Of a stretch of 55,121 bases of DNA, positions 9,410 to 55,121 are shown piece by piece (position 1 is the first letter of the stretch; each line of letters begins with the position of its first letter). The notes below the pieces were generated by a model. The model was not told the DNA's origin, searched no databases, and saw only the letters and a list, made by a program, of their open reading frames with translations. The stretch comes from a virus. Position numbers and translations under genes: made by a program. The stretch covers positions 1 to 55,121 of IMG/VR virus record IMGVR_UViG_3300025305_000023, one strand, 5' to 3'.

Positions 9410-11770
9410 TCATGTGTTTGGCATATTTTCATCTAAATCTGCATCTGCAACGTAATGAACGGAAACGTTATCAAACAGAACTGTTCCAGCAGGAACGAAT
9501 AGGTATATACCATTTTTAGTTCTATATTCGGCTGTTATTGAAGTTGCTGCTGCTGAGATGACTCTCGTTTTGCTTTCATACCCTCTAGTACCAGAGGATT
9601 TTTTCAAATCTCTACCTGATGTTCTATTGAGTGCATCGCCAGTTGTACCAGTTTTTGGTGAATATAAAGTAACTGTAGGATCACCTCTCATTACGACTGG
9701 GAACTTGTAATAGTAATCTTTACTTGGAGTAATAAGAAAATCAACAACAGTATCGTTGGGGGTATTAGAATCTAACATGGTTTGTGTGTGAGTAGATTGA
9801 TCTACACCATAACTTCTCTGATAGAACCGACTACACAAATTCAACTCATCATTTACGTTTGATTTTGGATTAGTGGTTGCAATTAGTCCTCTTTCTAGTT
9901 TAACTTTTGCCAAATCTAGTGTTGTGTTTAATCTTGCTGTACTAAACCCGAAACCAACATAATCCTTATTACCACTAGGCGTTGTTGTAATATTAGGTAC
10001 AAGGAATGCAATTTCATATTTACTCCACAATGTTCCTAACTGGACTGACGCAGGGTAGGATGTAAAGGTATTTGTGCCATCATATTGATTGATCACCAAA
10101 TCCATGGTAGCACCTGTAACACCAGACTTAGCCCAGAATGACATTGTTGCGTTTTCATTACGCAATGTTCTTACATCTTCTACTCGGTTTTCAATGTAAA
10201 CACAATCGCCCGCTATTCCACCTTGAGGATGGACATTGTTTTGTAGGGTAACGTAATATACTGGTTCGTTGGACACATCAGTCTGGTTGACAGTAAACGT
10301 ATTTCTTGCAACAGTATAGGTTCCTGCCGTACCACCACCACCGGAAACACCATCCATTCGGACCCAACGGTCAGCGAAGTATGTTGTTCCGGTTGAACCG
10401 CGAACCCCTGCACCCCTTTGCCAAATATCAAAATTCCCATTAATGAGAATGTTGTCATTCATTGCATGACCATATGTAGTGCCACCACTTGAGGTAGAAC
10501 GGAATGCCCAATTTCTGCCGCCATCTCCCCCCCGTGTGGCTGCTGCCGCTTGTCCACCACCACCACTATTATGGTTTTGATTAAATATGAAACCTCGTCT
10601 ATCTTCACCGCTAGGCCATGCAACTGCAAATGGTTTTACTTGTCCGCCTCCTCCGCCGGGATTTGTTGATGTTAGTTTACTGTCGTGTCCAACATATAGC
10701 AAACCACTACCACCATCACTTGTTGGAATATCATCAATATATCCTGTACCAACAATTTGAATATAAGTTTGTGCATCTAACACAAAAGGACTTGTAATAC
10801 ATATACCAACGGCAATTCCAAGATCATCACTAGAAGCATTTAGTTTTTTCCAATCAGCATTGGTTGGTGTCACTGAACTCCCATCATATCCGACGACATC
10901 GCCTCGGACGATATCGGTTCCTGCATCAATACTCACAATAAATCGGTTATTATCAATTCCACCCGTACCACCCGTACCAGAACCCTGTAAATATTGACCC
11001 CTATAATGTAGCACATATCCAACATCAGAAGTGACACCAAGCATTACTGGCTTATTAACTTGCCCGCTAACCACGGGTTCAACTCTAGTGATTCCTCCAC
11101 TATTACCGGGACTTAGAAAATAAACAGAACCGGCACTCAATCCACCATAAAAATCTGTTGCTCCGGTGAAATCACCCTTAACTTTACCGTGAGTAGTGAC
11201 TGTGATATAAGTGTTTGCTGAATTATATGGTCCTTGTGGTGTACCGCCACTATGCGGCCAAGTAATACCAGAAATAACACCAAAAACTTCTGCATAATTT
11301 TTATTGTCTGCTCTGGAAAGAAAATATTCAGGACCACCGGAACATCCATCAACTTCTCCAGCAACCCTTACTACCCTACCAAAAGTAAAACCTTTGGTTG
11401 CCGTGTAACCACCAAGAGGATATACTTTTGATTTAATTGAAGTAAGTTCTGCTTTAGATAAATCATAATTTAAAGTACCGTCAATGCTAACATCTCCTGA
11501 AAACGTAATTCCCTTTGGAATCACATCTGCAAGAGAGCATCTGAACACACCAGCACTTAAATCAGATCCTGATGTTATTCCTCCTAACGGATCGTTTGAA
11601 GCAGTAGTACCCAATGTAAATACGATACCATCGCCGGATGCACCAGTATAGATTGACATCCGATTGAGTTTTTCAACAACAAGAGCATTATAATGACTCA
11701 CCCAATCTGCAAAAGTAGTAGATTGAGTTAAGTTCCATATTTGGTATAGATTGTCTTCTGTGAATCCCAT
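9410..11770 (-). CDS. Tail-fibre protein with N-G-N-F-x-I-W-Q-R-G domain
   Basis: 786 residues. The N-terminus (YQIWNLTQSTTFADWVSHYNALV) is an attachment-type helix seen in T4-like fibres. Two repeats of a beta-rich module ending in SAGSVYFLS- or V-G-Y-V-L-H-like strands follow. Residues about 440-560 contain NILINGNFDIWQRGAG and YFADRWVRMDG, a signature widely found in phage tail-fibre proteins as a jelly-roll-like domain. Glycine-rich linkers (GGGGQ, GTGGTGG) separate the domains. Its start lies 25 bases after a TATAAATA box, consistent with late expression. Receptor binding or fibre-network function is inferred. Confidence 0.75.
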   Translation of the reverse strand: MGFTEDNLYQIWNLTQSTTFADWVSHYNALVVEKLNRMSIYTGASGDGIVFTLGTTASNDPLGGITSGSDLSAGVFRCSLADVIPKGITFSGDVSIDGTLNYDLSKAELTSIKSKVYPLGGYTATKGFTFGRVVRVAGEVDGCSGGPEYFLSRADNKNYAEVFGVISGITWPHSGGTPQGPYNSANTYITVTTHGKVKGDFTGATDFYGGLSAGSVYFLSPGNSGGITRVEPVVSGQVNKPVMLGVTSDVGYVLHYRGQYLQGSGTGGTGGIDNNRFIVSIDAGTDIVRGDVVGYDGSSVTPTNADWKKLNASSDDLGIAVGICITSPFVLDAQTYIQIVGTGYIDDIPTSDGGSGLLYVGHDSKLTSTNPGGGGGQVKPFAVAWPSGEDRRGFIFNQNHNSGGGGQAAAATRGGDGGRNWAFRSTSSGGTTYGHAMNDNILINGNFDIWQRGAGVRGSTGTTYFADRWVRMDGVSGGGGTAGTYTVARNTFTVNQTDVSNEPVYYVTLQNNVHPQGGIAGDCVYIENRVEDVRTLRNENATMSFWAKSGVTGATMDLVINQYDGTNTFTSYPASVQLGTLWSKYEIAFLVPNITTTPSGNKDYVGFGFSTARLNTTLDLAKVKLERGLIATTNPKSNVNDELNLCSRFYQRSYGVDQSTHTQTMLDSNTPNDTVVDFLITPSKDYYYKFPVVMRGDPTVTLYSPKTGTTGDALNRTSGRDLKKSSGTRGYESKTRVISAAATSITAEYRTKNGIYLFVPAGTVLFDNVSVHYVADADLDENMPNT

Positions 11771-38537: not shown

Positions 38538-38682
38538 CTGCTGCTTGAACATCTTCAAGCATTTGATCACATGCACATTTATCTGCTGGTGTGCATCTAC
38601 AATCATCTGAAAAATATATCAATTTTGCTTTTAATCCACGAATTATTTGTTCATTTGGTTCCATAAAGGCCACATCCTTCAT
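38488..38682 (-). CDS. Small Cys-containing hypothetical protein
   Basis: 64 residues. MEPNEQIIRGLKAKLIYFSDDCRCTPADKCACDQMLEDV has four Cys in CRC..CAC, a possible metal site, before a helical end. It begins with an ATGA overlap with the methyltransferase gene, so it is co-translated. Confidence 0.6.
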   Translation of the reverse strand: MKDVAFMEPNEQIIRGLKAKLIYFSDDCRCTPADKCACDQMLEDVQAADEWIKILPGKETICDG

Positions 38683-39446
38683 TCTGATAAAAAATCATCC
38701 AACGTTGCAACAGACAACACATCTGCTATACGTTCATTAGTTATTCTATAGTATTTATCATCCATTTCAATACCAATGTAATTTCTTTTTAAATTTATTG
38801 CTGCAATTGCAGTTGTTCCACTACCAATACAATTATCCAAAACTATATCTCCCTCTTTGGTATATGTTCGGATCATATATTCAAAGAGAGCAGTTGGTTT
38901 TTGTGTTGGGTGTAATCCAGTTTCTTGTTTAAAACGAAGAATCGTTTTTGGATATCGTGTTCCACGATTCTCGCGGTGCATACTTTTCTGATTGGCATAT
39001 ACTTCGCCAATAGTAGCACCATCTTTTGAGAAGAATCCACTATAAGGTTTTCCCTCTTCCATTTGAGGAAAATACTTTGATCGTTTTTTGGAAAACACCA
39101 ATACATTTTCATGAGATTTCATCGGCATTACGTTTGCGTTCAATGGATTTGTTCCTTGTGGTTTTTCCCAAATCCATTCATACCTAAACATCTTGATGTT
39201 ACTTGCAACCAATACACTGGTGAATGGTTGGGCAGCAGTTAGAACAATTGCAGCGTCTTCTTTTGCAATTCTGGTGTACTGACTCCACAAATCTTCAAAA
39301 GGAATTATAACGTCCCATTTACACGCAGTAGTTCCGTATGGAAGATCGCATAGAATCATATCAACAGAGTCATCTGGAATATCTTTCATAACTTCCAGAC
39401 AGTCTCCGTGGATAATTTGGTTTTTGAAGTCTTCTATGTTTTTCAT
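38679..39446 (-). CDS. DNA adenine/N4-type methyltransferase (beta-class order)
   Basis: 255 residues from ATG 39446, overlapping the previous stop. Catalytic motif IV is DLPYG at 34-38 and the SAM-binding motif I is D-N-C-x-GSGTT (GSGTT at 208-212), so motif IV precedes motif I as in beta-class enzymes. Around residues 100-200 are FRYEWIWEKPQGTNPLNA, HENVLVFSKK, RYPKTILRFKQE and LHPTQKPTALFEYMIRTYT, standard for phage-borne DLPYG methylases. It methylates adenine (or exocyclic amino groups) in a short site. The gene upstream looks like a restriction endonuclease. Confidence 0.9.
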   Translation of the reverse strand: MKNIEDFKNQIIHGDCLEVMKDIPDDSVDMILCDLPYGTTACKWDVIIPFEDLWSQYTRIAKEDAAIVLTAAQPFTSVLVASNIKMFRYEWIWEKPQGTNPLNANVMPMKSHENVLVFSKKRSKYFPQMEEGKPYSGFFSKDGATIGEVYANQKSMHRENRGTRYPKTILRFKQETGLHPTQKPTALFEYMIRTYTKEGDIVLDNCIGSGTTAIAAINLKRNYIGIEMDDKYYRITNERIADVLSVATLDDFLSE

Positions 39447-40003
39447 TTTGGAATTTCTATAATTGCTCGTTCGTTCAATAGAGAAAGTGGAATATCTAAC
39501 CACAACTGATCGCTCATCGATTTATGGATTCTAGCAACAAACGTGTTTCCTATTCCCTTCCATCCATCTTTTGTTTTTTTCCAATTTAATGATCTATAAT
39601 CCAGAATATCAGAATCAAAAGTATAAAGCGTATAGTGATGATTCGGTAAATCGTCTTTATATGATAAACAAAAGAATACGTCCTCATGATTCTCTGAGAG
39701 ATAATTTATTTTTTCTTCTAAGGTTTTCTTTGATGTTGTTCGGTGTGAAGAAACTGTGAATTTTGGTTTCTTCTTTCCTTTCATCCTTCCACCTTTACAG
39801 GATATTCTAATATCATTGTAAGTAATATCAGTTCCCACTTGATGACTGCCTGGATTCCACAACACATCATCGGATTGTTTAATTAGAGAATTATACAACA
39901 AATTCTCCCAGTTTATCCCATTAATAGGACTTACTAGGAGTCTGTGATATATTTGGAATTGTTCTTCCATATCAACAGATATTTTGTCGTAATCAATTTG
40001 CAT
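39443..40003 (-). CDS. Restriction-endonuclease-like protein paired with the methylase
   Basis: 186 residues from the second ATG (40003), which is six bases after a TATAAT box. NWENLLYNSLIKQ is followed by WNPGSHQVGTDITYNDIRISCKGGR (D59, S68-C-K70), resembling the G-x-D-I-x(n)-[DES]-x-K core of PD-(D/E)xK type II enzymes, with the acidic residue before K replaced by Ser-Cys. It overlaps the methylase gene by four bases, the usual layout of a restriction-modification pair. It could degrade competing phage or host DNA, or be a nicking or homing enzyme. Family assignment is an inference. Confidence 0.55.
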   Translation of the reverse strand: MQIDYDKISVDMEEQFQIYHRLLVSPINGINWENLLYNSLIKQSDDVLWNPGSHQVGTDITYNDIRISCKGGRMKGKKKPKFTVSSHRTTSKKTLEEKINYLSENHEDVFFCLSYKDDLPNHHYTLYTFDSDILDYRSLNWKKTKDGWKGIGNTFVARIHKSMSDQLWLDIPLSLLNERAIIEIPK

Positions 40004-40009
40004 CATTAA

Positions 40010-40037
40010 ATTATATCACACATAATTCTAATGTCAA
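40010..40037 (-). promoter_or_regulatory. Sigma70-like promoter with leaderless start (restriction-modification pair)
   Basis: TTGACA (40037-40032), 16 bases, TATAAT (40015-40010), then six bases to ATG 40003: near-consensus elements, and an expected transcription start at the start codon. Confidence 0.8.
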
Positions 40038-40044
40038 CAAGTTT

Positions 40045-40570
40045 ATCGAAAGACAAGATGCCCGGGCGAATAACGCACGCTACTCTACAACCCGAACACC
40101 TTATCGTGATTTGTTCGTTCCCAGTGGGGGCCACCCACTCAATGCCGTAATGAATCTTACATCATTTTCACCCGAAGGTCTACGAATGCCTTGTACTCGG
40201 GGGAACGAGTTATTTCGGCCTGGGGAGGATTTCATTATACCTCCAACTTTCGGGGTCAACTAATGTTATTAATTTACCCTACTTGCACCATCGCTGTTTG
40301 AGTTACCAAACTAGACTCAGGCACTTGCCCGTCATCTACCCCACTACAGGGAGCAACATACTTTAGTCCGCATGACGAAAACTTTTTCAGTCACCAGGCT
40401 TGTGTGGTGATCAATCCCACACATAGTTATTCAATTTTCAAAAGCACCGGCAGGGCGGGCCCGCCCCGCCGGGCATAGAACAAGTTTTAGTTACTACTTT
40501 CTACAGTAGCGGCAGATCTCATAGTAGTGCGATAATGCGATTAACTATGATTTTCAATCCACATTTATGA
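40045..40570 (-). ncRNA. Candidate large structured RNA, no gene visible
   Basis: About 525 bases contain no credible open frame but many hairpins, strongest in the minus sense: a C-UUCG-G tetraloop near 40190, AGTGGG/CCCACT near 40130, ACTCG/CGAGT near 40206, GGAGG/CCTCC near 40230, TGTGTGG/CCACACA near 40420 competing with TCACCA/TGGTGA, CTACT/AGTAG near 40500, and a 26-base GC palindrome. It lies between a small HTH-like gene and a strong promoter, near tRNA-Lys. Size and tRNA neighbourhood recall the phage ROOL and GOLLD RNAs, but I cannot match any family. Strand is inferred. Confidence 0.4.
40447..40472. repeat. 26-base GC palindrome
   Basis: Thirteen bases pair with the following thirteen, with a single G-T pair when read on the minus strand (none on the DNA level except one mismatch). 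It is sharply GC-rich in an AT-rich region. Could be the base of the RNA above, a weak terminator, or a protein-binding site. Confidence 0.75.
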
Positions 40571-40606
40571 TTGAGATCATTCAATCAACTAAAACCCAAA
40601 ACCAAA

Positions 40607-40861
40607 TCAGCAAAGTCCAGCACGAATGGCAAACGGATTGTCCGTGTAACCATGGAATTCCATCCCGTAGGAGGTCTTGCCACTGGCGGATGGGCAAGAA
40701 GTAACGCTCCAGTTACCGTATGCTTCAACCTGATTCTTGATATCACTGATCGTAGCGCGCATGTTGCTCACACCGAATCGGCTTGAAGCCTGGCCGGGGG
40801 TGAGGGACTTGCCTTGTGCAAGATGATTAATGACACGCTGCTTCTTTGTAAGAGTACTCAT
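40607..40861 (-). CDS. Small HTH-like DNA-binding protein
   Basis: 84 residues from ATG 40861, which has GGAG nine bases upstream; an ATG at 40876 is less likely. TKKQRVINHLAQGKSLTPGQASSRFGVSNMRATISDIKNQ is a winged-helix/HTH pattern, with SRFGVSNMRATISDIK as recognition-helix region. The C-terminal half is a short beta region ending F-A-I-R-A-G-L. It has its own promoter with a leader of about 75 bases, and lies just upstream of the candidate RNA. A local regulator is plausible but unproven. Confidence 0.65.
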   Translation of the reverse strand: MSTLTKKQRVINHLAQGKSLTPGQASSRFGVSNMRATISDIKNQVEAYGNWSVTSCPSASGKTSYGMEFHGYTDNPFAIRAGLC

Positions 40862-40950
40862 AATGTACTTCTCCATTCAATTGCGACATTTACTTAAGAA
40901 AAGAAAAAGATGTCTGTCGCTCGCATCCGTTTCTTGATTGTTATACGAGT

Positions 40951-40978
40951 AGTATACTCTACTGCTCCCCGTTGTCAA
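40951..40978 (-). promoter_or_regulatory. Sigma70-like promoter of the HTH gene
   Basis: TTGACA (40978-40973), 16 bases, TATACT (40956-40951) on the minus strand, followed by an untranslated leader to ATG 40861. Confidence 0.7.
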
Positions 40979-41085: not shown

Positions 41086-41158
41086 TGGGTCGGGTGGGAA
41101 TCGAACCCACGACTTCCGGTTTAAAAGACCGATACTCTGCCAATTGAGTTACCAACCC
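41086..41158 (-). tRNA. tRNA-Lys (anticodon TTT)
   Basis: Acceptor GGGTTGG / CCGACCC, anticodon stem TCGGT / ACCGG with loop CTTTTAA, T-arm GTGGG-TTCGATT-CCCAC, discriminator A. No encoded CCA. It follows the DUF4406 gene by seven bases and is probably cut from that transcript. Confidence 0.93.
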
Positions 41159-41555: not shown

Positions 41556-41583
41556 ATTATATGCCATATTAGGGATATGTCAA
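41556..41583 (-). promoter_or_regulatory. Sigma70-like promoter with leaderless start (DUF4406 gene, tRNA-Lys)
   Basis: TTGACA (41583-41578), 16 bases, TATAAT (41561-41556), six bases, ATG 41549. Same spacing as the promoters at 37.6, 40.0 and 52.5 kb. Confidence 0.8.
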
Positions 41584-41662: not shown

Positions 41663-42826
41663 TTAATTTGCTTTTCTAAACTGCTGCAATTTCTTCCTTG
41701 GAACTTTGAGTCCAGAAACTATAGTGTACAGCCTCAGACTATCTTTGTTGTCCTCATATATCCCTCTGTGCAATACTGCATTCGGACACAGCGAAGATAG
41801 TGTATCAAACCCATAGGATAGGCTGTCCATCAAACCCGGTGTATTTTCCATGATGTCCTTGCTGCCGACTGCCACACATGCAGCAGCACTAGAATCTGAA
41901 AGTTCTACGTCACTGAGAAGTGTCTTTTCAATGTTGGCCTTGATTGCATTTGATACCTTTTGTTCGTCATCAAATTCCTTTAGTTTCGCAACACCCATCA
42001 CCAATACACCACCGCATCTCAGTACACCTGCATAGTCCGTAGGATCAAATGAAGTGTACGGCGAAGCATTGTTGGTAAGAATATTGAACACATGGAACAA
42101 TCCAGATACAGTGTTGTTGACCGTAGGCCAGAATTGTTTGACGGTCAGTCCCTTGTACATCTTTTCGATTTTGGAATTGTCGATGATGAGGAGTGGCGAG
42201 ATTTCACCAGATTCTGCACATTCGCCAATGCTGCTCAATGTCTCATATGCATTTGCAGATACCTGTGGTGATGTTGCTTCCCCTCTTGTGGGTAATGACA
42301 TAACAACACCGACTCGTTTTTCTGGATCGTCGTGTCCAATGTATTTCATGTATTTCTTTGCAGTTTCAATCAAGACGAGTGCTGAACCGCTTCCGCTGCC
42401 ACCACCTGCACCAATGCATATGAAAACATGGTCAACATTGTTGCCATAGGTTTTCCGCATGAGATCAAACACATTTTGCTTGTACTTGTTTGCAGCCTCA
42501 TGCCCTCTTTCCATATTCTTCCCTGCACCCTGCTCACCAATGTCGAGCAGCATCTTTTGCTCTACAGGCAGATCAAGAGAATCCAGATCGTGATTGGAAG
42601 TGTTCACTGCGATGCACTTTCTATACCCCCGGTCATAGAATGCCTTGGCAATTCGTCCACCACCCTGTCCAGAACCAATCCATGCAAAGGTTTGCGAACC
42701 ACCAGATTCGTCCTTTACTGCATTCTCTTCTTCGTCTGGAATTTCGTAGTCTTCCAAATCAATGTCTGGAATTTCCAAGTCTGGAAGTTGATTATCTAGT
42801 TCTTCGTTTGTTGTTTCTTCGCTCAT
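41663..42826 (-). CDS. FtsZ/tubulin-like GTPase
   Basis: 387 residues. The GTPase domain begins at residue 45 with FAWIGSGQGGGRIAKAF (51-59 is the first nucleotide loop) and the tubulin signature GAGGGSGSGSA is at 139-149. SLPTRGEATSPQVSANAYETL and the C-terminal PNAVLHRGIYEDNKDSLRLYTIVSGL complete the fold. The first about 44 residues are a strongly acidic extension not found in FtsZ. Phage tubulins form filaments that position DNA or capsids; others interfere with host division. Which applies is unknown. It heads, with the Fe-S carrier upstream, a long minus-strand gene run. Confidence 0.85.
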   Translation of the reverse strand: MSEETTNEELDNQLPDLEIPDIDLEDYEIPDEEENAVKDESGGSQTFAWIGSGQGGGRIAKAFYDRGYRKCIAVNTSNHDLDSLDLPVEQKMLLDIGEQGAGKNMERGHEAANKYKQNVFDLMRKTYGNNVDHVFICIGAGGGSGSGSALVLIETAKKYMKYIGHDDPEKRVGVVMSLPTRGEATSPQVSANAYETLSSIGECAESGEISPLLIIDNSKIEKMYKGLTVKQFWPTVNNTVSGLFHVFNILTNNASPYTSFDPTDYAGVLRCGGVLVMGVAKLKEFDDEQKVSNAIKANIEKTLLSDVELSDSSAAACVAVGSKDIMENTPGLMDSLSYGFDTLSSLCPNAVLHRGIYEDNKDSLRLYTIVSGLKVPRKKLQQFRKAN

Positions 42827-42854: not shown

Positions 42855-43196
42855 TTATGCTGAAAAGGAACTACCACATCCACAACTGGCGGTGGCATTC
42901 GGATTGTTGAACACAAAACCTCGTCCCATGATCTCATCACGAAAATCTATTGTTGTTCCATCAATATATAAAAGACTCTTCGGATCACATATAACAGTTA
43001 TACCATTTTGTTCCGAAACAGTTTCATCATTGTCTTTGATATTGCTAGTCAAGTCTAGTATATAAGAGAAACCAGAACATCCTCCACCCCTTACACCAAC
43101 TCTTAAATATGTCTGTTCATTATCAAGTTCATCTGTTTTGTCCTTGATGATATTATTTATTTCTCTTTGTGCGATTTCTGTTAGGATTATGTTCAT
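42855..43196 (-). CDS. A-type iron-sulfur carrier (IscA/ErpA/HesB family)
   Basis: 113 residues from ATG 43196 (ATGA overlap with the upstream stop). ILTEIAQREINNII opens the family fold. The three metal-binding cysteines are present: C40 in RGGGCSGFSY and C105/C107 in ASCGCGSSF. Such proteins pass Fe-S clusters to target enzymes. With the ferredoxin gene 2.9 kb away this suggests the phage supports iron-sulfur enzymes during infection. Recipient is unknown. Confidence 0.92.
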   Translation of the reverse strand: MNIILTEIAQREINNIIKDKTDELDNEQTYLRVGVRGGGCSGFSYILDLTSNIKDNDETVSEQNGITVICDPKSLLYIDGTTIDFRDEIMGRGFVFNNPNATASCGCGSSFSA

Positions 43197-43648
43197 GTGT
43201 CCACCCACCACACTCTATCTTTACCCTTTGAGTTGATTCTCTTTGCAAGTGCTTTCATTGTTTTGTTCTTGAGTGTATATTTGGTGCCTACTGTGCGACT
43301 ATTGAGAATCTTCACATGTAAATTATCGGCCTGTGACGCGGCGGGCCGTCCCTCCGAATTGATAAAGTTTATCATTCCCTTTGCATAATCTCCATCATAC
43401 TTCTGTCCAGTCATCGCATATACCACTGGTTCGTGAAGAGCATCGTTCGTGTCCCACGCCCACATTTTACCCTTGCTGTCTATAACGAATCTCAACTCTT
43501 TGTAACTTGACTTCTTCATCAATGTTCTCATCTCTCGTTCGGTCGGATTCTCCAGACCACGAAAGTCTTCCCACTTCGCACCTTTGTATGGGAAGGTTGC
43601 AGATAATTTTGCAGGCTTCTCTGTGATGTAGTGCTTAAAGTTTTTCAT
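43193..43648 (-). CDS. Hypothetical protein with capsid-targeting-like start
   Basis: 151 residues from ATG 43648; an ATG at 43666 would put six residues ahead of the targeting motif and is less likely. The start MKNFKHYITEKPAK fits the M-K-x-F/Y-x-x-F/Y-I-x-E pattern. The body contains YKELRFVIDSKGKMWAWDTNDALHEPVV, a phage domain common in internal or virion proteins, and a basic C-terminus ending in RVWWVDT. Cleavage after residue 10 would be expected if packaged. Confidence 0.65.
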   Translation of the reverse strand: MKNFKHYITEKPAKLSATFPYKGAKWEDFRGLENPTEREMRTLMKKSSYKELRFVIDSKGKMWAWDTNDALHEPVVYAMTGQKYDGDYAKGMINFINSEGRPAASQADNLHVKILNSRTVGTKYTLKNKTMKALAKRINSKGKDRVWWVDT

Positions 43649-46375: not shown

Positions 46376-47410
46376 TCAATAATCATTTCCAAAAATAGTA
46401 TTTAACTGTCGGTTTACTCGAACAAAAGTAGTACATTTTGGGAGTTGTTTGAGGTTTTTTGCACCAGTGTATGTGCATGCACTCCGGACTCCACCTAGAA
46501 TTTGTTGAATGGTGTTTTTGATAGATCCACGATACTCTACCTGCACAGTCTTTCCCTCAGACGCTCTGTACGTTGCTACACCACCGCTATGTTTCTCCAT
46601 AGCAGTATCAGAGGACATTCCATAGAACGTCTTATAGAGCGTTCCATCGTCCCCTGCAACCATATCACCAGCAGACTCATCATGTCCTGCAAGCATACCG
46701 CCGAGCATTACGAAGTCTGCTCCTGCTCCAAATGCCTTTGATACATCACCTGCTGACTGGCATCCACCATCCGCCATGATATGTCCACCTAACCCATGAG
46801 CGGCATCTGCACATTCAATTACTGCGGACAATTGAGGATACCCAACGCCCGTTATCTTCCTTGTTGTGCATACGCTTCCTGGTCCGATTCCCACCTTCAC
46901 TATATCTGCTCCAGCGAGAATCAACGCTTCTGTCATTTCTGCTGTTACAACATTTCCTGCAATTATAATTTTGTCTCGCCATTCTTTTCTTACCCGTCTC
47001 ACAAAGTCTACGAATTTCTGGGAATACCCATTCGCAACATCCAGACAAAAGAACTGATGGGGCGCACTAAATGATGTTTCTGGACCAAAGAGAAACTCCT
47101 GATCTTTGTTTGACATCCCAAACGAAAGTGACATAGACTTTCTTTGGTTTATTGAAATAGTGTCGGGAATTTCGGTAATGTGTTTACTTAGACAAGTCAA
47201 CATATCATATTGGTAAAATTCCTTACCAATTTCAATTGTCCCTGTTGTGTCCATGTTTGCTGCAACAATAGGAATCCCTGTCCATGTCTTTCCATTCTTA
47301 AATGTAAACGTTCGGTGTAAATCAACCTCTTTGCGAGATTCTAGTACGGAGCGTTTTGGACGAATGAGTACGTCCGAATAGTCAAGTTTAATATCGTCTT
47401 CAATTCTCAT
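46376..47410 (-). CDS. guaC: GMP reductase GuaC
   Basis: 344 residues against 347 in E. coli GuaC, and near-identical in long stretches: [110 protein letters not shown]. The catalytic Cys is C181. It converts GMP to IMP with NADPH, so it rebalances purine pools, plausibly toward adenine nucleotides for an AT-rich genome. The high similarity suggests acquisition from a bacterium. It starts with an overlap to a small membrane gene. Confidence 0.95.
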
Positions 47411-54996: not shown

Positions 54997-55121
54997 TATA
55001 ATCATAGGTTGCCCCTAGGCCGAGGTTGAGAGCCCTGAGATCTCGGTGACCCTGGGTGAATCTTAGAGATCTGCAAGTCTCTCCGCGTATCAGTGCGGGC
55101 AGTGATCCCCCATTCTCCCCG
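54997..55121 (+). ncRNA. Candidate structured RNA at the right edge, incomplete
   Basis: A TATAAT at 54997-55002 (weak -35) is followed by hairpin-rich sequence without an open frame: CCGAG/CTCGG with an internal loop, AGAGA/TCTCT, CCGC/GCGG. The window ends before its boundary. It contains CTGAGA but not the rest of the thiamine riboswitch core. Confidence 0.35.

Follow-up and report, generated by a model that had tools for sequence, protein, structure and literature searches.

A probable chain of noncoding RNA modules, including manA and an uncatalogued 94-nt domain, in a marine T4-like phage

The minus strand between positions 40594 and 40052 of the viral record IMGVR_UViG_3300025305_000023 (analyzed from position 1 to position 55,121, hereinafter the window) probably encodes, with a probability of roughly 70%, a chain of noncoding RNA modules that each fold on their own (M0, manA, and M2) and that would be separately released and act in trans. 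The place of the RNA, the identity of its central part with manA, the covariation of the 3' module M2, the exchange of modules between phage groups, and the presence of a terminator and a promoter between the RNA and the next gene are established by the data reported below.

Gene content, strand, and transcription signals of the locus

The virus is a marine T4-like phage, encoding a baseplate wedge subunit and a gp32-like single-strand DNA binding protein; a DNA similarity search against named phages retrieved either nothing or short pieces at chance level. About 600 bases lacking a credible gene are bounded by a winged-helix gene and a DNA-methyltransferase cassette. A preliminary description of this DNA had pointed to a gene-free stretch of about 525 bases, and the analysis confirmed it: between the ORFs 40876..40607 (-) and 40006..39443 (-) there are only short overlapping ORFs, mostly with TTG/GTG starts, the length differences of the region among relatives are not multiples of three, and no conserved protein, whose presence would speak against an RNA, was found.

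The many stems described for the region are real as well, since the minus strand (40605..40045) has a folding energy of -199.7 kcal/mol versus a mean of -160.0 for shuffled sequences (z -5.65). The plus strand, on which the preliminary description was based, gave a z of -4.14, which is largely the mirror image of the minus-strand helices. The Rfam match reported below, both neighboring genes, and both near-perfect sigma-70 promoters lie on the minus strand; thus, the RNA is likely encoded on this strand. Hence, the location and the structured nature of the RNA had been recognized correctly, whereas the strand had not, and its true extent (about 40594..40052, minus strand) goes a little beyond the proposed 40045-40570. 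Along the minus strand, the order is: promoter, winged-helix gene, M0, P0, manA, M2, terminator-like hairpin, perfect promoter, and next gene. The features are the following:

41158..41086 (-): tRNA-Lys gene, about 0.5 kb from the RNA
40978..40951 (-): sigma-70-type promoter TTGACA-16-TATACT preceding the winged-helix gene; recognized only by its match to the consensus (11 of 12 bases)
40876..40607 (-): winged-helix-like protein of 89 aa (Pfam HTH_39, just below its cut-off)
40594..40485 (-): M0, closed RNA domain, cloverleaf-like, with the closing helix TTTTAGTT/AACTAAAA around three hairpins
40472..40447 (-): P0, hairpin of 11 bp with a very high G+C content, separating M0 from manA
40423..40214 (-): manA RNA (Rfam RF01745), matched over its full length, pseudoknot included
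40208..40115 (-): M2, closed RNA domain of 94 nt directly 3' of manA, covered by no Rfam 15 family
40105..40052 (-): long terminator-like hairpin with a 16-bp outer stem and a weak U tail (z -6.29)
40037..40010 (-): perfect sigma-70-type promoter TTGACA-16-TATAAT before the downstream gene
40006..38679 (-): downstream cargo outside the RNA, i.e., a 187-aa protein lacking a family match and an N6/N4 DNA methyltransferase

The nearby tRNA-Lys gene and the two flanking promoters had been noticed before, and both observations hold, as does the general idea that a large noncoding phage RNA with several domains lies close to tRNA genes. Within 40045..40606, ARAGORN called no tRNA or tmRNA, and no Rfam tRNA/tmRNA match was found.

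The promoter at 40978..40951 is a candidate for the start of an operon that includes the RNA. The chance expectation for the perfect promoter pattern is 0.04 in the whole window, and its occurrence at 40037..40010 separates the downstream gene from the RNA, which makes the transcription of the former independent of the latter. A second perfect TTGACA-16-TATAAT promoter lies at 41556-41583 (-), at the start of a DUF4406 gene; the word RTGAATAA, considered as a phage promoter element, is not enriched within the window. As for termination, P0 occupies the same position in the relatives but varies in sequence, and a T run often comes next; it is probably the terminator of the winged-helix mRNA, perhaps a leaky one. 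The hairpin at 40105..40052 corresponds to clear terminators at the equivalent place in the relatives.

As to the surroundings, the 187-aa protein is, judging from its position only, a probable restriction endonuclease. The site just 3' of the RNA (38679-40006 (-) in the window) and its equivalent in four related contigs (L006, L010, L018, and L061) harbor a changing cargo, i.e., DNA methyltransferases with or without a homolog of the 187-aa protein, tRNAs, and other genes; the site thus looks like a variable hot spot. Three further genes of interest are found in minus orientation at 41663-42826, 42855-43211, and 46376-47410; among them are those for a tubulin/FtsZ-like (TubZ-like) protein, an iron-sulphur carrier protein, and an IMP dehydrogenase/GMP reductase-like protein, the last assigned from reading the sequence only.

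The manA RNA and the adjoining modules

The covariance search of the stretch retrieved manA (RF01745) with 71.1 bits against a cut-off of 55.2 (E 3.7e-16), covering model positions 1-192 of 192. Moreover, the conserved core of the family (GUGACUGAA, GGUAU...AAUCC) is present and closed by a covarying pseudoknot; both findings place the sequence within the family. Related loci were gathered with a manA core pattern, which gave 40 contigs; all 40 match RF01745 at E < 1e-12, some of them below the family cut-off, and 35 distinct manA sequences were compared. The core pattern also gave ten matches in a collection of genome contigs, about the estimated chance level, none of which is manA according to Rfam.

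The alignment with related phages revealed compensatory changes. The pseudoknot, GCCTG/CAGGC in the window, has all five pairs in 33 of the 35 distinct relatives; seven different 5' strands occur, and the spacing is constant. The helix TGTGTGG/CCACACA is P1 of manA and is kept in the relatives with changes on both sides. It had been described as one of two mutually exclusive hairpins, an arrangement that is not conserved; the other hairpin, TCACCA/TGGTGA, was rejected as a conserved alternative, TCACCA falling in the variable P1 loop and being absent from relatives such as L008, L010, and L013. TGGTGA, in turn, is part of the conserved GGTGACWGAA of manA.

The suggestion that the RNA may represent an unrecognized class does not apply to the central 210 nt, which are Rfam manA; it does apply to M2, which shows clear covariation and for which the search of 39950..40700 against Rfam 15 returned no family even at E ≤ 10. 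Matches to RAGATH-30 and sR38 were far under their cut-offs and were discarded. In the window, M2 consists of P1 (UCGUUCC/GGAACGA), P2 (CCG/CGG), P3 (ACC-UUCG-GGU), the conserved segment GAUGUAAGAUUCAUUA, a hairpin (AGUGGG/CCCACU), and a loop pseudoknot; the UUCG tetraloop pointed out in the preliminary description is genuine and caps P3. The window copy scores 102.8 bits with the model R1, which includes this copy itself.

Copies of M2 were collected by screening viral contigs with a portion of the segment that is most conserved in M2. This gave 30 contigs, most of them with the complete module and a few with chance matches inside genes; three others (L027, L032, and L034) contain distant relatives at best, with 22-29 bits. 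Further copies were taken from the manA contigs. In 31 distinct copies, P1 is paired in 209 of 217 cells (the best of 2000 permutations reached 194) in spite of its variable sequence (UCGUUCC, UCGUCCU, GACUCUG, and others), and P2 in all 69 cells (best permutation 63). The P2 strands are UCC/GGA, UCG/CGA, or CCG/CGG; a second subtype has GUGG/CCAC or GCUG/CAGU instead. The tip of P3, UUCG in the window, differs in other copies. According to the alignment A1, 13 of 18 pairs have two-sided changes, and the covariation score is 0.384, versus 0.158 for shuffled and at most 0.186 for slid partners. The pseudoknot joins the loop of the last hairpin to a 5' segment, with 89 of 92 Watson-Crick pairs, a value reached in none of 5000 shuffles; 20 copies have AGCC/GGCU or GGCC/GGCC, and three copies, including that of the window, have GGCA and keep three of the four pairs. 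A divergent M2 that lies outside the model occurs in L009 at the expected place after manA, with the GUAAGA loop kept on a changed stem.

The copies were gathered mainly by one conserved motif, and the near-invariance of this motif is thus partly due to selection of the copies; this way of gathering has no bearing on the helices and the pseudoknot. Overall, the comparative data strongly support M2 as a structured RNA module. A search of bacterial genomes with one exact pattern did not retrieve M2, and no description of M2 or of such RNA arrays was found in the open-access literature. A possible pairing between the GUAAGAUUC segment and 16S rRNA was considered and set aside as probably being at chance level.

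The 5' module M0 is common to four contigs and has a fold z of -3.34; compensatory changes were recognized by eye in two helices among these four sequences only, so that its support is weaker than that of M2. Other folded segments lie between manA and M2 in L033, L036, L039, L063, and L070. Near manA and M2, four contigs (L033, L051, L056, and L070) share a recurrent segment, GGTGGTGCAGAAGCAC...TTAATCGGACGANGGTGAAAA...CCACC, located before or after M2; the pattern was found in these four contigs only, and the segment may be a further RNA module.

Distribution of the modules among phage groups

In T4-like phages, M2 comes after manA. It lies within 600 nt downstream of manA for 23 of the 35 distinct manA sequences, and a 24th case emerged from a search of the whole record. 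M2 can also be missing, or other modules can take its place, between manA and the terminator. Conversely, six contigs (L011, L029, L038, L040, L043, and L047) harbor M2 lacking manA. A single-subunit phage RNA polymerase is encoded in all four manA-less contigs examined in this respect (L029, L038, L040, and L043); in L029 and L040, tRNA-Arg and tRNA-Leu flank M2. On the reverse strand of L038 and L047, M2 is one of several closed modules with ACAATCTAA-like linkers between them, and none of the other modules of these arrays matches Rfam at the cut-off. Similarly, manA also occurs in L067, a contig with a T7-type primase/helicase. These data show an exchange of RNA modules between T4-like and T7-polymerase phages. 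Many of the relatives come from one phage group, and the counts given here are therefore not independent.

A permuted tmRNA (RF04321) or an ordinary tmRNA (RF00023) lies near the manA/M2 RNAs and tRNAs in related contigs (L008 3664-3926, L016 4492-4764, L018 5750-6010, L021 5182-5371; L054 6560-6896).

In cyanophage S-CREM1 (L055), manA (10215-10429) starts one nt after tRNA-Leu and abuts tRNA-Asn. A simple rule detected a terminator within 700 nt after manA in 26 of 35 loci, and in L005, L007, L016, L018, L062, and others this is followed by a promoter. Furthermore, a sigma-70-like promoter immediately precedes manA in L013, L030, and L069, an arrangement that the window lacks. The genes downstream of manA are unrelated among the loci, not conserved, or tRNAs.

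Alternative readings and relation to known phage RNAs

The manA RNA was published as a probable cis-regulator in the 5' UTRs of metabolic genes (Weinberg et al. 2010, PMC2864571), a label repeated in papers on cyanophages (PMC9964418, PMC10665884), and RF01745 is typed Cis-reg in Rfam; its structure was corrected in Rfam 14 (PMC7779021). In principle, manA might therefore be a riboswitch-like element, with M2 and the terminal hairpin serving as expression platform of the DNA-modification genes that lie downstream. Riboswitches usually have an aptamer with a terminator after it, and DNA-methyltransferase genes also follow in L006, L010, and L018. Nevertheless, we regard this reading as unlikely: a perfect promoter stands between the RNA and the gene, the downstream genes vary or are tRNAs, manA of S-CREM1 is wedged between tRNA genes, and M2 is absent or swapped for other modules in some loci. 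The annotated role, which is not part of the covariance model, does not fit the loci studied here, because the next gene has its own promoter, the downstream genes are not conserved, and tRNAs flank the copy of S-CREM1. Such a mismatch speaks against the functional label of manA, not against its membership, which is based on sequence and structure. Given the terminators after manA, the promoters directly before it, and the tRNA setting in S-CREM1, a free-standing RNA fits better than the leader of one gene, and manA is more likely to be a free-standing phage RNA than a cis-regulator. A single tRNA cluster of S-CREM1 (1246-2144) includes wcaG, manA, and a predicted abiF RNA; other RNAs termed cis-regulatory may therefore be free-standing too.

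In 27 of 33 loci with sufficient upstream sequence, some of them retrieved solely through the manA pattern, the winged-helix gene precedes the manA core by 94-220 nt. This linkage might indicate that the winged-helix protein binds the RNA and is autoregulated or titrated by it, the RNA being in effect the 3' UTR of that gene. Such a relationship appears quite improbable, since manA lacks an adjoining winged-helix gene in L030, L067, L069, and S-CREM1, the gene lacks manA in L004, L017, L021, and L023, and the linkage may merely reflect one related phage group. A further reading, in which there is no functional RNA and the stems arose by chance or at the DNA level in a spacer richer in G+C, is very hard to reconcile with the Rfam match and the fold z-scores, and is contradicted by the covariation that both manA and M2 show across dozens of loci.

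Coming back to the chain of modules, we infer that transcription would start at the promoter upstream of the winged-helix gene and end at the hairpin 40105..40052, the next gene being served by its own promoter at 40037. Each module is closed by a helix and short A-rich linkers lie between them, which suggests that host ribonucleases would release separate stable RNAs, as they do tRNAs and the T4 species 1 and 2 RNAs. Once released, the RNAs would act in trans in the infected cell, translation or RNA metabolism being the processes most likely affected. Three aspects of the window count against this model: no promoter directly precedes manA, read-through would be needed if P0 is a terminator, and the U tail of the final hairpin is weak.

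The central 210 nt share sequence, helices, and pseudoknot with the manA family, for which marine T4-like phages are a known setting, as here. Its known members lack an M2 or M0 domain, whereas the window has both; moreover, the family is labeled cis-regulatory, whereas the RNA of the window and its relatives look free-standing, with a terminator of their own and no fixed downstream gene. A similar organization is found in the T4 species 1 and 2 RNAs (rnaC and rnaD), short stable non-tRNA RNAs set a few nt apart and beside tRNA genes in a T4-like phage, to which the modules described here would be comparable; the M2 model R1 did not match the T4 rnaC/rnaD region. ROOL and GOLLD (PMC12286853) are also large phage noncoding RNAs of unknown function, often near tRNA genes, and had been mentioned for comparison. 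The RNA described here is neither of them, their covariance models giving no match at the gathering score in the window, nor at E ≤ 10 in 39950..40700; it is, moreover, made up of separable modules, each about 95-210 nt long. Finally, wcaG and other cis-regulatory RNAs of cyanophages (PMC9964418) are structured RNAs of T4-like cyanophages, and wcaG shares the S-CREM1 tRNA cluster with manA; the window has no Rfam match to wcaG.

On the whole, we consider it rather probable that unrelated marine phages carry exchangeable cassettes of small stable structured RNAs (manA, M2, and several other unnamed modules) together with tRNAs and tmRNAs, M2 being a new class of such RNAs and manA a trans-acting RNA instead of a riboswitch. 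M2 is a well-supported RNA module that is absent from Rfam 15 and occurs as a unit in T4-like as well as in T7-polymerase phages, and there are good grounds for doubting the cis-regulatory label of manA, which has stood as probable since 2010. These findings bear on the old question of what stable RNAs other than tRNAs, e.g., the T4 species 1 and 2 RNAs, do in the tRNA clusters of phages, a question that becomes testable in cyanophage S-CREM1, where manA lies between two tRNA genes.
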